Shown here piece by piece: positions 5,113 to 34,276 of a stretch of DNA of 34,276 nucleotides; the first letter of the stretch is position 1; each line of letters begins with the position of its first letter. The DNA is from Bacillota bacterium. GTDB taxonomy: Bacteria > Bacillota > Clostridia > Saccharofermentanales > Fastidiosipilaceae. A program made the position numbers and the translations under genes. Where the stretch lies: the NCBI GenBank assembly GCA_030055235.1, contig JASGUW010000237.1:1-34276 (forward strand), written 5' to 3'. The notes beneath the pieces were generated by a model. That model did not search any database and was not told where the DNA came from. It saw nothing but the letters and a program-made list of their open reading frames with translations.

Positions 5113-5310
5113 TGGTCAAGATAGGCCGAAATGGCAATCGAATTTGCCATTCCACGCTGCTTTGACCAGAAAGGTGTCTTTGGTGGTCAAGATGGGCCGA
5201 AATGGCAATCGAATTTGCCATTCCACGCTGTTTTGACCAGAAAGAGGCCCTTGGTGGTCAAGATCGGGAGAAATACAAAAAAGATTTTGTAAAACTCCTC
5301 AAGTTGACCA
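5113..5310. repeat. Three tandem 56-bp palindromic elements with 15-bp spacers
   Basis: Elements lie at 5113-5168, 5184-5239 and 5255-5310. Each is exactly 56 bp, begins TGGTCAAGAT and ends TTGACCA. The 15-bp gaps at 5169-5183 and 5240-5254 are similar to each other (GAAAG....CTTGG pattern). Copies 1 and 2 are nearly identical and have an inner stem ATGGCAA/TTGCCAT. Copy 3 keeps the ends and the length but has a different inner stem, TACAAAA/TTTTGTA. A fourth member lies at 26053-26108. No protein is encoded. A mobile palindromic element or a structured RNA would both fit. Confidence 0.85.
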
Positions 5311-10461: not shown

Positions 10462-10601
10462 TGTGCTGCATTCTGTGAGGTAGATGTCAGCAGACTTGGC
10501 TTTAGGGGCCTCAAATGCCAATTGGGAACAGGGCTTGGCTGTGGAAATTACCTTCTGAACAAGTTTAGTGCCTCAAATTATCTGTCCTGGACTCGGACGA
10601 G

Positions 10602-10785
10602 TGAGCAATTTTTCCGCTCTGGACACCATTTCGGTTCCCTGAGCGGGCTGCGCCTGTCCAGAGCGTAAATTTTGCACAGAGAAGGGCTTCGGGTGAGCAA
10701 ATTTTCCGCTCTGGACGGATTTTGGTGTCCCGGGACACTCTGAGCTTGTCCAGAGCGTAAATTTTGCACAGGCGTGCAGCGGTTT
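10602..10785. repeat. Tandem 77-bp palindromic elements (family B), same geometry
   Basis: Two 77-bp elements lie at 10602-10678 and 10694-10770, separated by 15 bp. Each begins TGAGCAA, then TTTTCCGCTCTGGAC, and ends with GTCCAGAGCG followed by AATTTTGCACA. Across the junction they form a hairpin with 23-nt arms (10656-10678 and 10694-10716) around a 15-nt loop. This is the same 23-15-23 geometry as family A, with the same loop-proximal sequence but a different basal stem. Confidence 0.8.
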
Positions 10786-21593: not shown

Positions 21594-21699
21594 CCGGCCG
21601 ATGCAGAATATCCTCTTTCTGTGCTGCCAGAGCTGCTGTAGCCTGATGGACAGAGCGCGGCGGGACTTTCCGGATTCGTTCAGAGGGGGATAGCCGATA

Positions 21700-22065
21700 A
21701 TCGGGGTTTGTGTCCGGTTTCGCTGGCACAAACGGTCTTTTTTGGCCAGCTGTGGACAAGTTTTTCGTTCCTGCCCCGATTCCGGGGCACCAGCGCAATT
21801 TTTGTCCACCCTTGGCCAGAAATCGGGGTTTGTGCCCAGGTTTCAGGGCACAAACGACCTTTTTTGGCCAGCCCTGGACAATTTTTTCGTTCCTGCCCCG
21901 ATTTCGGGGCACCAGCGCATTTTTTGTCCACCCTTGGCCAGAAATCGGGGTTTGTGCCCGGGTTCGGGGGCACAAACGGCCTTTTTTGGCCAGCCCTGGC
22001 CAATTTTCGCTCCTGCCCCTGTTTCGGAGCACAAGTGGCACTTTTTGATCAGCAGCGCTGTTTGC
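21700..22065. repeat. Three tandem 122-bp palindrome-rich repeats (family C)
   Basis: Copies begin at 21700, 21822 and 21944 (ATCGGGGTTTGTG), a strict 122-bp period. Each contains the hairpin GTTTGTG...CACAAAC with a 14-nt loop, a second hairpin TGCCCC/GGGGCA, and a longer pairing of TTGTCC..TGGCCA with TGGCCA..TGGACAA. The third copy is partly degraded, and weaker echoes (CGCTCCTG..CTGTTTCGG) continue at about 22080 and 22267. Open frames across it in several frames only translate the repeat. I do not consider them genes. Confidence 0.9.
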
Positions 22066-25903: not shown

Positions 25904-26052
25904 TTACATACTCCACCCAGATACCGGAGCGCTGTTTTTTCAGGTCCAGCTGAGATCCCGGATCCCGGGTGCACGTCAAGAGTGTCAGGACGCGGGTGTA
26001 CGTGTTAAGCGGGTTGCTGGTATGGGAGGAGAAGCTGTTTGCGGATTTCTGG

Positions 26053-26108
26053 TGGTCAAAACAGCGTGTAATCCAAAAAACCATTTGGATACCAGGCTAC
26101 TTTGACCA
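26053..26108. repeat. Fourth 56-bp palindromic element
   Basis: It is exactly 56 bp, from TGGTCAAAACAGCGTG to TTTGACCA, and aligns without gaps to the reverse complement of the elements at 5113-5239. The termini and the CAGCGTG.AAT block are conserved. The inner stem is ATCCAAA/TTTGGAT here and ATGGCAA/TTGCCAT there, so both sides changed together. It lies 21 kb from the tandem set. Confidence 0.85.
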
Positions 26109-26662
26109 CGGAGAGTCGCGCACGCCGCGCAGAGCCAAAATAGGAGCGCCAGGACAGCTGAATTTGCTTTTCCCTGGCAACGAAAGAGCAGATCCAGTCT
26201 TTTACCTCTTCGAAACGTACCAACTTTATGCGGATAAGCCTTGCCGATCGCCGCCGTCTTTCATTCCTATCATTTTATGCTTCGCCCAGCGCCCAGCACC
26301 CTGAGTTCAGCACCCAAGATCCTGGGTTCAGCACCCAGGATCAAGAGCCCTGCTTCCAGCGTCAAGAATTCCGACTGCTGCGGAAGAGAACTTCTACAAA
26401 TGTGCCCAGTGTTCAAGCTGCGCAAAACTGCAGTGTTGCAGGTGTTTGAGAAAGGTTCAGAAAAAGAGAGGCTCGTCCCGAAAATATGACACACCCCCTG
26501 TAGCGGAAACACAGTAAAAACCGCTTTTCTAGGCATTTTGAATTTGAGAAAATTCCATAAACAAGGCTTTCAGGCGTGTGTCATTTGCTTAACATCAGGG
26601 GTGTCGGCAATCTCAGGCACAACAGACCAAAACTTGTTTAATTTAACTCAAAGAGAACATAT
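26109..26662. other. Intergenic region at the edge of an AT-rich patch
   Basis: No gene is supported. Near 26287-26345 the phrase TTCAGCACCCA(A/G)GATC recurs two to three times as a small minisatellite that can fold (CCTGGGT/ACCCAGG). At 26486-26494 and 26576-26584, ATGACACAC and GTGTGTCAT form a 9-bp inverted repeat 99 bp across; this may be the remains of an insertion-element end. Base composition drops to AT-rich from about here to 28720. Confidence 0.45.
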
Positions 26663-27284: not shown

Positions 27285-28385
27285 CTACTTCATCGGCTTT
27301 TCGCTCTTTTTTTCCTGTTGTTGGAGGTAAAATAAGGTTTTCTGTGTTTCTATCTCAGCTCTAAGCTCTTCTTCGGTAGGGAGATAGAGTTTGTATTTTA
27401 CTGCAAACAGCTGCTCATTCCCATGCATCACCGAATATCGTGCAATATCTTCATCTGTATCATAACAGAGGACAATACCGATAGTAGGATTATCTCCCTC
27501 GCTTCGCTTCAGTTCATCGTACATTCGGACATACATATCCATTTGACCGACATCCTGATGCGTGATTTTTCCTGTTTTTAAATCAAATAAAACGAAACAC
27601 TTCAGGATATAATTATAGAAGACCAAGTCAATGAAGTAATCCTCTTTCTCGGTTTTAATATGTTGCTGCCTTCTGACAAAAGCATAGCCTTTCCCGAGTT
27701 CCATAATAAACTTTTGTAAATTATCAATGATAAACTGTTCCAAATCAGATTCAAGATAACTTGTGTCTTTAGGAATACCTAAAAATTCAGCAATAACGGG
27801 ATTTTTTATGAACTCCAACTTATCCTGTTGGTACTTTGAGGTCAGAGACAGCATTTCTTCCTTTACCAGACGCTTATCCTGTGATTTGAGAAGACGATAA
27901 TAATACTGCGTAGAGATGTTCCGTTGTAGTGTTCTGGAACTCCAAGTTTCGTTGAGTGCTTCCTTTGCATACCAATCTCGTGCATCTTTATCCGGAACTT
28001 GCAGCAAACAGCGATAATGCGTCCAGGAGAGTATCGGAGATTTTGAACTCACTGCGTTCAAAATTTGAGGAAAGTAATCATAAAAACGGACGTAATAGTA
28101 AAGATTCCTTTGATTAAGTCCTTTTCCATAAGATTTTTCCATTTCTTTAGCAAGAGTTTTTAGCAGTTCTGTACCATATTCGGCACGTATCCCGCCCTGT
28201 AATTCTTCTTCCGCTATCCGCTTCCCGATTAGCCAATTTCGAAATACCAAAGCAACATTTACAGAGCTATAGGCGTAGCTTTGGGTAGAATCAATAATTT
28301 CTTTTAAATCTTGAACAATATTATTGCTTTTTCTATATTTAACATGTGAACTCAAATCTTTGGGAATCATATCAAAACTTGCCAT
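27285..28385 (-). CDS. DUF1016/YhcG-family PDDEXK nuclease
   Basis: This protein has 366 residues. The N-terminal DUF1016_N region (about 20-170) has the typical LVFRNWLIGKRIAEEELQG, the YGxELLKxLAKEM and KGLNQRNLYYYVRFY motifs, then LSWTHYRCLLQV and the WSSRTLQRNI helix. The C-terminal PDDEXK domain (about 190-340) has DYFIDLVFYN (D253) and VLFDLKTGKI (D268, K270), followed by Q281 in the family's DVGQMDMYV motif. A DNase role is inferred from the fold. YhcG genes often travel with restriction or other defence genes; none is seen here. The gene is much more AT-rich than most of the window and probably horizontally acquired. The start at 28385 has AAAGGA about 12 bases upstream. Confidence 0.9.
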   Translation of the reverse strand: MASFDMIPKDLSSHVKYRKSNNIVQDLKEIIDSTQSYAYSSVNVALVFRNWLIGKRIAEEELQGGIRAEYGTELLKTLAKEMEKSYGKGLNQRNLYYYVRFYDYFPQILNAVSSKSPILSWTHYRCLLQVPDKDARDWYAKEALNETWSSRTLQRNISTQYYYRLLKSQDKRLVKEEMLSLTSKYQQDKLEFIKNPVIAEFLGIPKDTSYLESDLEQFIIDNLQKFIMELGKGYAFVRRQQHIKTEKEDYFIDLVFYNYILKCFVLFDLKTGKITHQDVGQMDMYVRMYDELKRSEGDNPTIGIVLCYDTDEDIARYSVMHGNEQLFAVKYKLYLPTEEELRAEIETQKTLFYLQQQEKKSEKPMK

Positions 28386-32167: not shown

Positions 32168-34276
32168 ATGTATACGGTAAATATCATGAGTATGAAAAAA
32201 ACGAGAAGAATAGTACTCCCCCTGATTCTGGCACTGCTTTTTGTATGGATGGCGAGTTCGTGTATTGGATCTCCTAAATTAGTGATTAATGAGGGCGCAA
32301 GAAGGTTCTGGTTCGGCAACTATAACGGTGCGCCTGTCCAGTGGCGAGTGGTGGGCAATAAGACAGATGGCAATAACACCTACAGGCTGTTTCTGTCCAA
32401 CCATGTGCTTGCTGATGTACAGTTCAATCCGGAGAGTGCCGGTAATGCGTGGCAGGGCAGTGCCGCTCAAAGCTGGTGCCAGAACTTCTATGCCAATGCG
32501 TTCAGCGCGGCTGAAAAGGCCGTTATTGTCCCAACTACGAAAACCGATGCCGCATTCACAAGCCCGAACGGTCGCCAGTTTGGTGAATCTTCATTGACGA
32601 ATGAGCAGGTTTTCTTCCTTTCGGCAGAGGAGGCACACGTAGAGAATCCTTTTGAATCTGACGATGATCGAATTGCGAAGAATTTGAGCAATCAGCCTGT
32701 GTCATGGTGGCTGCGTTCACCCAGCGATCCTGATCAGGTGGGCATTGTGGATATGAATGGTGGGGCGGGCAGCTCCGACTACACCAGTTCGCTTGGAGCA
32801 CGTCCTGCCTTTAATCTCAATCTTAACTCTATCCTCTACGTATCTGACGCCGAGGGCGGCAAGATAAGCGGCCCGCTGGGTGCCAAGGCGCTGACGGCAG
32901 TTTCCCAGGAACAGCCCAATGACTGGAAGCTGACATTGAAAGACGACTCCAGAGAGGATTTTTCCGTGACCGTGACGTCGCTTTCTTCCTCGCAGATTAC
33001 GTTCAATTACGAAGGGGCAACGCGGTATGATGCTGATACAGCTCCCAACGAGTATATTTCTGCCATACTCACACGCAGAGAAACAGGAGGTTTGATGCCC
33101 AGTGTCCGGTACTATGGGCGTATCGCACAACCTTCGTCCTCGAGTGGCACGCTGACCATTGACTTTTCAGGAATTCCGATAGAAGACATGGGAGTAATTT
33201 CTATCTTCTCTGAGCAGTACAACGGTGATAAACAAACTGACCTGGCCAGCGATCCGGAGCGCGTTTATCTGCTATATAGCATTTCGAACGATTTGACCAA
33301 TATAAGCAGCAACAACGAAGCAACTGAACGCCATTTTACTGAAACGACAGACTATTCTGCCACTCTTTCCGCAGACAGCGGCTATGTGCTCCCTGAAAAG
33401 ATCAGCGTTAGTGTGGGTGGAACTGAGTTGACAGAAGGTATTGAGTATAACTACGACAGTAGCAGCGGCGCCCTGTTGATTCCTGCCGCATCTATTAACG
33501 GGAATGTTCAGATTGAGGCGGTGGCGGTGGCAGCTGATCCGACTGAGACCAGTCCGACGACGGATGAGACGACGGACGCGACCTCGGACGAACCGACGTT
33601 CCCGACGATCACGACTGATCCTACGACGGTTGATCCGACGAGCCCGACCACGATTGATCCGACGACATTTAACCCGACGACATTTGATCCGACGACATTT
33701 TATCCGACTACGACTGATCCGACGACGACCAGTCTGACCACGACTGATCCGACCACGACTGATCTAACCACGACAGATCCGACTACGGCCACCCCGACCA
33801 CGACTGATCCGACTACGGCCACCTCGACCACGACTGATCCGACGACGACCAGTCTGACCACGACTGATCCGACCACGGCTACCCCGACCACGACAGATCC
33901 AACCACGACTGATCCGACCACGACTGATCCGACCACGGCTACCCCGACCACGACTGATCCGACTACGGCCACCCCGACCACGACAGATCCGACCACGGCT
34001 ACCCCGACCACGACAGATCCGACCACGGCTACCCCGACCACGACAGATCCGACGACGGCCAGTCCGACCACGACAGATCCGACTACGGCCACCCCGACCA
34101 CGACAGATCCGACGACGGCCAGTCCGACCACGACAGAGCCGACTACGGCCATCCCGACGACGACGGAGCCAACCACGACAGAGCCGACGACGGCCACCCC
34201 GACCACGACAGATCCGACCACGACGGATCCGACCACGGCCAGCCCGACGACGGCGGCGCCGACGACGGCCACCCCG
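32168..34276 (+). CDS. Secreted DUF6273 protein with Ig-like domain and Thr/Pro/Asp repeats (3' partial)
   Basis: The frame is open from ATG 32168 to the window edge (703 residues seen). ATG 32192 (MKKTRRIVLPLILALLFVW...) gives a cleaner signal peptide; neither start has a well-spaced ribosome site. ASSC after the hydrophobic core is a weak lipobox. Residues about 41-225 match DUF6273: FWFGNYNGAPVQWRVVG, then SAAQSWCQNFY and QPVSWWLRSPS, then SLGARPAFNLNL. Residues about 388-455 (TDYSATLSADSGYVLPEKISVSVGG) form a small beta-sandwich of a type found in Gram-positive surface proteins. From about residue 458 the chain is a (T)PTTTDPTT(A)-type linker, probably a cell-wall-spanning, glycosylatable stalk. 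The C-terminal anchor lies outside the window. Confidence 0.8.
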   Translation, partial: MYTVNIMSMKKTRRIVLPLILALLFVWMASSCIGSPKLVINEGARRFWFGNYNGAPVQWRVVGNKTDGNNTYRLFLSNHVLADVQFNPESAGNAWQGSAAQSWCQNFYANAFSAAEKAVIVPTTKTDAAFTSPNGRQFGESSLTNEQVFFLSAEEAHVENPFESDDDRIAKNLSNQPVSWWLRSPSDPDQVGIVDMNGGAGSSDYTSSLGARPAFNLNLNSILYVSDAEGGKISGPLGAKALTAVSQEQPNDWKLTLKDDSREDFSVTVTSLSSSQITFNYEGATRYDADTAPNEYISAILTRRETGGLMPSVRYYGRIAQPSSSSGTLTIDFSGIPIEDMGVISIFSEQYNGDKQTDLASDPERVYLLYSISNDLTNISSNNEATERHFTETTDYSATLSADSGYVLPEKISVSVGGTELTEGIEYNYDSSSGALLIPAASINGNVQIEAVAVAADPTETSPTTDETTDATSDEPTFPTITTDPTTVDPTSPTTIDPTTFNPTTFDPTTFYPTTTDPTTTSLTTTDPTTTDLTTTDPTTATPTTTDPTTATSTTTDPTTTSLTTTDPTTATPTTTDPTTTDPTTTDPTTATPTTTDPTTATPTTTDPTTATPTTTDPTTATPTTTDPTTASPTTTDPTTATPTTTDPTTASPTTTEPTTAIPTTTEPTTTEPTTATPTTTDPTTTDPTTASPTTAAPTTATP
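33540..34276 (+). repeat. Coding tandem repeat, Thr-Pro-Asp linker
   Basis: A 15-30-bp unit is repeated throughout, for example ACCACGACTGATCCGAC and ACTACGGCCACCCCGAC. It encodes runs of TTDPTT and TTATPTT. Early copies (33600-33720) are more varied (VDPTS, FNPTT, YPTT) and later copies nearly identical, so recent expansion is at the 3' side. The minus strand is also open here and would read (V)nG, but that is a shadow of the repeat. Confidence 0.9.

Follow-up and report, generated by a model that had tools for sequence, protein, structure and literature searches.

The window, the whole 34,276-nucleotide contig C237 of a 3.42-Mb genome in 242 contigs (G000; 94% complete), contains four 56-bp palindromic units with intact TGGTCAA and TTGACCA ends. 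Three of them lie in tandem on the forward strand at positions 5113-5168, 5184-5239 and 5255-5310; units 1 and 2, both with the core ATGGCAA/TTGCCAT, are near-identical copies with a period of 71 bp, and unit 3 has the core TACAAAA/TTTTGTA. The fourth unit (26053-26108, core ATCCAAA/TTTGGAT) was assigned to the reverse strand by flank alignment. All four were exact matches where an earlier note on this DNA had placed them, with 0 expected by chance in 100 dinucleotide shuffles. The three inner stems also read as that note had given them and correspond to three haplotypes differing mainly at columns 21-23. Single-strand folding of the window units gave z-scores of -3.0 to -5.7, better than shuffles, and no known RNA family from Rfam matched in the window.

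Two further arrays were detected in the window: one of family F5 at 10601-10771 (period 92; TRF and the unit spacing of F5) and one of a different family with the same type of ends, F2/F2b, at 21699-22047 (period 61; TRF and a unit scan). The single unit at 26053-26108 lies inside a MITE-like carrier element of family 1 (25967-26498), delimited by its terminal repeats and by alignment to other copies. The left terminal repeat, GGGTGCACGTCAAGAGTGTCAGGA (25967-25990, forward strand), has one mismatch; the right one (26476-26498, reverse strand) is degenerate and was located by alignment. No clear target duplication was seen around this copy, and the array at 5113-5310 has no recognisable carrier. 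A gene for a YhcG/DUF1016 PDDEXK nuclease is found at 27285-28385, about 0.8 kb past the carrier element. At the end of the window (33643-34276), a 30-bp coding tandem repeat of 16-19 copies, rich in Thr, Pro and Asp codons, lies in an open reading frame that runs past the window end; similar repeats are present on other contigs (L036, L038).

A genome-wide search for the exact ends (TGGTCAA-N36..48-TTGACCA) retrieved 286 copies from G000 and 0 for a reversed control. The two window loci are therefore not the only copies, and the observation of the earlier note holds and was understated. Copies of F1, the family of the four window units, are mostly arranged in tandem with a period of 71 bp, made up of the 56-bp unit and a 15-bp spacer. 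When the ends were relaxed to TGGnCAA/TTGnCCA, 760 copies belonging to several sequence families were obtained from G000 (control 0). At least five unit families with unrelated cores were distinguished in this genome: F1, F2 (core TGCCCC/GGGGCA), F3 (core TATTGCCC/GGGCAATA), F4 (core GAGTTGTGTCA/TGACACAACTC) and F5, whose units measure 77 bp and have the ends TGnGCAA/TTGCnCA. Neighbouring units in tandem arrays resemble each other.

With the relaxed ends, 150 copies were found in G001, a congener of G000, 108 in G058, from another family of the same order, 53 in G004 and 12 in G010; each of 29 further species had 0-6, with 0-3 in their controls. The exact ends rose above background in 3 of the 188 species of the order, and the looser ends added two species among the 34 searched. 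A class-wide sample of 291 genomes contained nothing comparable outside G000 (0-3 matches each), and the matches listed in a scan of named genomes were mostly due to chance, the G058 assembly excepted. Repeated TGGTCAAAA...TTTTGACCA matches in Stieleria/Rhodopirellula (L056, L058, L065, L088, L112, L114, L129, L130) belong to a Planctomycetes repeat without a clear hairpin core, which is probably unrelated to the window units. Another tandem palindrome, with TGGCAA/TTGCCA ends, a length of 55 bp and a gap of 16, was observed in G004 (L209, 165-560).

The arrays lie between genes and are over-represented where the two genes converge (17 convergent, 14 tandem and 4 divergent, vs 37, 224 and 38), a preference that tolerated insertions would also produce; the gene context rests on our own simple gene-calling model, and the statistics come from genome stretches of which many were picked for holding arrays or carrier ends. 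Relative to the upstream gene, 12 F1 arrays had the same and 13 the opposite orientation, and a role as terminators or mRNA 3' hairpins was dismissed because the two orientations are not linked. Many contigs terminate within hairpin arrays (e.g., L044 1-300, L049 1-482, L172 2-256); the arrays thus probably interrupt the assembly, and the copy numbers given are likely too low.

The earlier note had proposed that both arms of the inner stem change together. Covariation statistics for a set of 38 distinct F1 units, drawn from G000 and G001, bore this out: 74 cells showed a two-sided change, against 43.7 ± 5.0 in shuffles, and the covariation score was 0.267 against 0.158 (0/500 shuffles for each). 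Slid structures scored far below the F1 register, and the covariation is genuine. The stronger proposal, that pairing itself is maintained, was not established. Two-sided change affected 9 F1 pairs, no excess over the 10.2 of the shuffles, and covariation in the G058 units was not above shuffles. The strongest F1 covariation was concentrated in the adjacent pairs 21-23, which occur as three haplotypes that two replacements would possibly be sufficient to generate. Cores were paired at 65-93% in most families (chance 23-31%); the G004A and G010 units, which also bear on maintained pairing, had no inner stem in register (36% and 35%, chance 24-27%, in 5 and 8 units). Every family has inverted ends; a palindromic core is frequent but not required.

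The fourth (middle) base of the ends was paired in only 6-50% of the units of F2, F3, F4 and G058, which makes the ends look like a sequence that is read and not like a stem; covariation of this middle base was considered and found no support. Column 14 was unpaired in 86 of 90 F1a units, beside paired columns. With the unit strand set by the spacer or the leader, G.T mismatches were more frequent than A.C mismatches in four of the five sets and the order was reversed in F1c, although the columns are few and related. An excess of G.T is what a folded strand predicts, and binding to duplex DNA does not predict it.

Each unit can be described as two inverted half-sites of ~15 bp, about TGGnCAAAAnnnnCG, that together span 55-57 bp (77 bp in F5). 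The inverted half-site and the spacing classes are common to all unit families. Gaps between units measure 4-5, 14-16, 25 or 89 bp, with a single gap of 35, and the units are 55-57, 76-78 or rarely 98-99 bp long, so that both gap and length classes rise in increments of about 10.5 bp or of double this value. At 10.5 bp, the phase concentration R reached 0.94 for nine families and 0.97 for four distinct classes, the highest among the periods scanned (9 to 12.5). Spacing in helical steps is compatible with a protein bound along a single face of the double helix, and a folded single strand would have no evident use for it; this argument from sequence is suggestive and is weakened because the unit families may share ancestry. 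Using a half-site profile built without F1, a match was found to CCGACAAATATGACG, which is contained in the terminal repeat of the first carrier (18/5000 shuffles), and no match to the ends of the second carrier described below (940/5000 shuffles).

The flanks of F1 arrays are conserved and terminate in inverted repeats of ~24 bp, GGGTGCACGTCAnnnnTGTCGGGA. Such ends occur in pairs in both G000 and G001, as in MITEs, and 50 carrier ends with up to 2 mismatches were found. Paired copies of this first carrier are mostly 0.4-1.2 kb long and hold 0-14 units, one element (L290) containing one degenerate unit; by-hand arithmetic puts their length very roughly at 390 bp with a further 71 bp for each unit, from which some copies deviate. 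Across 26 copies, the mean identity of the flanking sequences was 0.53 for a target duplication of 9 bp, compared with 0.23-0.35 at other lengths (0/5000 shuffles), which is the fixed-length duplication characteristic of MITEs; perfect 9-bp duplications flank L248 (TTCTGGATG) and L254 (GTGACCGCC). At one orthologous gap, G001 has an element with 4 units where G000 has 200 bp without the element; at another, G000 carries an element with 6 units, and the 370 bp found there in G001 lack it. The locus L287/L168 was dropped as a shared insertion since the block order differs. Our gene calls revealed no transposase gene inside copies of the first carrier. The F1 carrier is thus short, without a transposase gene, multicopy and mobile, in line with a MITE, and within the order it is confined to the genus of G000 and G001.

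Of 21 F1 arrays collected before the carrier ends had been recognised, 12 had such an end no more than 700 bp away (7.8% for random positions), as did 3 of 7 in an unbiased subset (random 3.5%). These comparisons show that many F1 arrays are internal repeats of a MITE-like element that brings them to new intergenic sites. The earlier note had suggested, as an alternative, copying by a process that needs the hairpin; the spread by copying holds, at least part of it being terminal-inverted-repeat transposition of the carrier, which may not need the hairpin. F2 arrays have a separate carrier of the same plan, with ends GTAAGCGGTTCAnAATCGGACGGGTGA; of the three pairs found, one has a perfect 8-bp duplication and another matches at 7 of 8 positions. 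The G058 arrays have no common carrier. Most of them directly follow a palindrome of ~15 bp close to CTTAGCATGCTAAGT (e.g., L051, L214, L215, L092), which gives the arrays a leader and a polarity. At L053 (8876-9250) of G058, an inverted repeat, GGGGCTGTCTCA/TGAGACAGCCCC, encloses an array of two units between its arms, and sequences similar to this repeat come after several other G058 arrays.

Candidate movers were sought among the transposases. A Y1 transposase is absent from G001 and exists in G000 as one broken remnant, which argues against REP-type mobilisation; RAYT and IS200 enzymes, absent or broken in the G000/G001 genus, were rejected as movers. G004 encodes a 252-aa Y1-like protein, judged by eye, and the location of a unit near this gene and of an array near the G000 remnant was set aside as a likely coincidence. 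IS256-type transposases are absent from G000 and G001. G000 had fifteen DDE_Tnp_1 matches, four proteins scanned from G000 and G001 were of the IS1634 or IS1380 type, and the IS4-superfamily genes inspected in the genus were without the carrier's ends. Two IS1634-type copies on contigs C98 and C122 of G000 (L338 and L340) encode proteins 97.6% identical and probably arose recently; one of them has a degenerate carrier end upstream. In the sampled stretches, no protein family present in several copies qualified as a potential transposase. The partner transposase may have died out, may have diverged or may lie outside what was sampled.

Integrons likewise carry variable palindromes whose inverted ends are conserved, and their attC core sites follow the consensus RYYYAAC/GTTRRRY. 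The 7-bp unit ends do not fit this consensus, and the inter-unit gaps of 4-89 bp carry no cassettes. The first carrier resembles bacterial MITEs in being short, non-coding, multicopy and bounded by terminal inverted repeats and target duplications, and differs from them in its variable internal array of palindromes and in that a partner transposase was not found. REPINs and REP sequences are palindromes found outside genes in high copy number; their inverted ends are invariant, and their hairpin cores often carry compensatory changes (PMC3116915, PMC3733652). The units share with them the invariant inverted ends, the fixed spacing, the compensated hairpin cores and the clustering (PMC3116915, PMC3733652), and F1 shows the hairpin doublet of fixed length with compensated cores, a combination that the G058, G004A and G010 units do not show. 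Unlike REPINs, the units have no GTAG or CGTC tag, their ends reading TGGnCAA/TTGnCCA followed by variable spacers; no RAYT accompanies them, with none in G001 and a broken remnant in G000; and units of the window type form regular tandem arrays with gaps in helical steps, many of them in a terminal-inverted-repeat element. Because both the tag and the transposase are lacking (PMC3733652), the units are REPIN-like in part and were not classed as REPINs. A matching plan is that of Cg_HINE in the oyster Crassostrea gigas, where satellite-like arrays form the central repeats of several non-autonomous transposons (PMC7492417) and, as here, different arrays sit in different carriers (PMC7492417). 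Cg_HINE is a eukaryotic element of the Helentron (rolling-circle) class (PMC7492417); in contrast, the bacterial carriers have terminal inverted repeats, 9- or 8-bp duplications and palindromic units. No bacterial description of such arrays was found in the open-licence literature.

On balance, and by no wide measure, we favour the reading that the units are satellite-like array repeats, often MITE-borne, whose half-sites are bound by protein on duplex DNA. Many F1 arrays travel to new intergenic sites inside a terminal-inverted-repeat carrier, with the number of units varying by copy and probably changing through tandem duplication and loss. A protein would bind the half-sites on one face of the double strand; the best candidate would be the transposase that moves the carrier, because the terminal repeat of one carrier contains a half-site match. 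The palindromic core may provide a further symmetric contact in interchangeable versions, in which case both arms would change together whenever a unit is replaced. This reading is weakened by the proportion of arrays near carrier ends (12 of 21, or 3 of 7 in the unbiased subset), by the lack of a carrier at 5113-5310 and in G058, by the second carrier's ends, which have no half-site match, and by the failure to find a partner transposase. A bolder version, which we regard as unlikely, is that the units represent a kind of bacterial satellite not described before: inverted half-sites arrayed in whole helical turns, acquired by several unrelated mini-transposons since a protein assembling there promotes or controls transposition, with the exchangeable palindromic cores as specificity tags.

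Other readings account for part of the evidence. If a folded single strand of DNA or RNA were the functional form, as in REPINs, either through copying by an HUH transposase that recognises the hairpin or as RNA hairpins, pairing would be selected; the fixed ends and length with compensated cores (PMC3116915), the stable folds, the F1 covariation and the strand-specific excess of G.T over A.C in four of five sets all agree with this. We nevertheless consider it doubtful, given a Y1 transposase missing in G001 and broken in G000, no orientation bias relative to the upstream gene, G004A and G010 units without a core stem, a fourth end base that is often unpaired, no covariation in G058, no Rfam match in the window and a helical-turn spacing that has no evident role in a folded strand. 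Arrays without any function, expanded by slippage and recombination while replication template switching in the quasi-palindrome rewrites one arm from the other, would explain why three adjacent pairs were replaced as a block instead of by scattered compensation, and why tandem neighbours are alike. Such a process is improbable in view of the mismatch conserved beside paired columns (column 14), the same ends around unrelated cores in several families and species, and the spacing classes. Least probable, in our estimation, are host chromosome-organising sites, at which a nucleoid or segregation protein binds the arrays and the carriers only spread them: arrays without carriers exist, and the arrays are dispersed, intergenic and helix-phased, but the exact ends occur in only 3 of 188 species, with two more having looser ends among 34, and a function central to the host should be conserved.

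A plan similar to one known from an oyster is seen here in a bacterium, in which at least two carriers and several families of units occur. By itself, the sequence points to a phased DNA-protein complex and offers a handle for finding the protein. It also separates selection for pairing from selection for a symmetric duplex site, a question that applies to REP-type repeats too.
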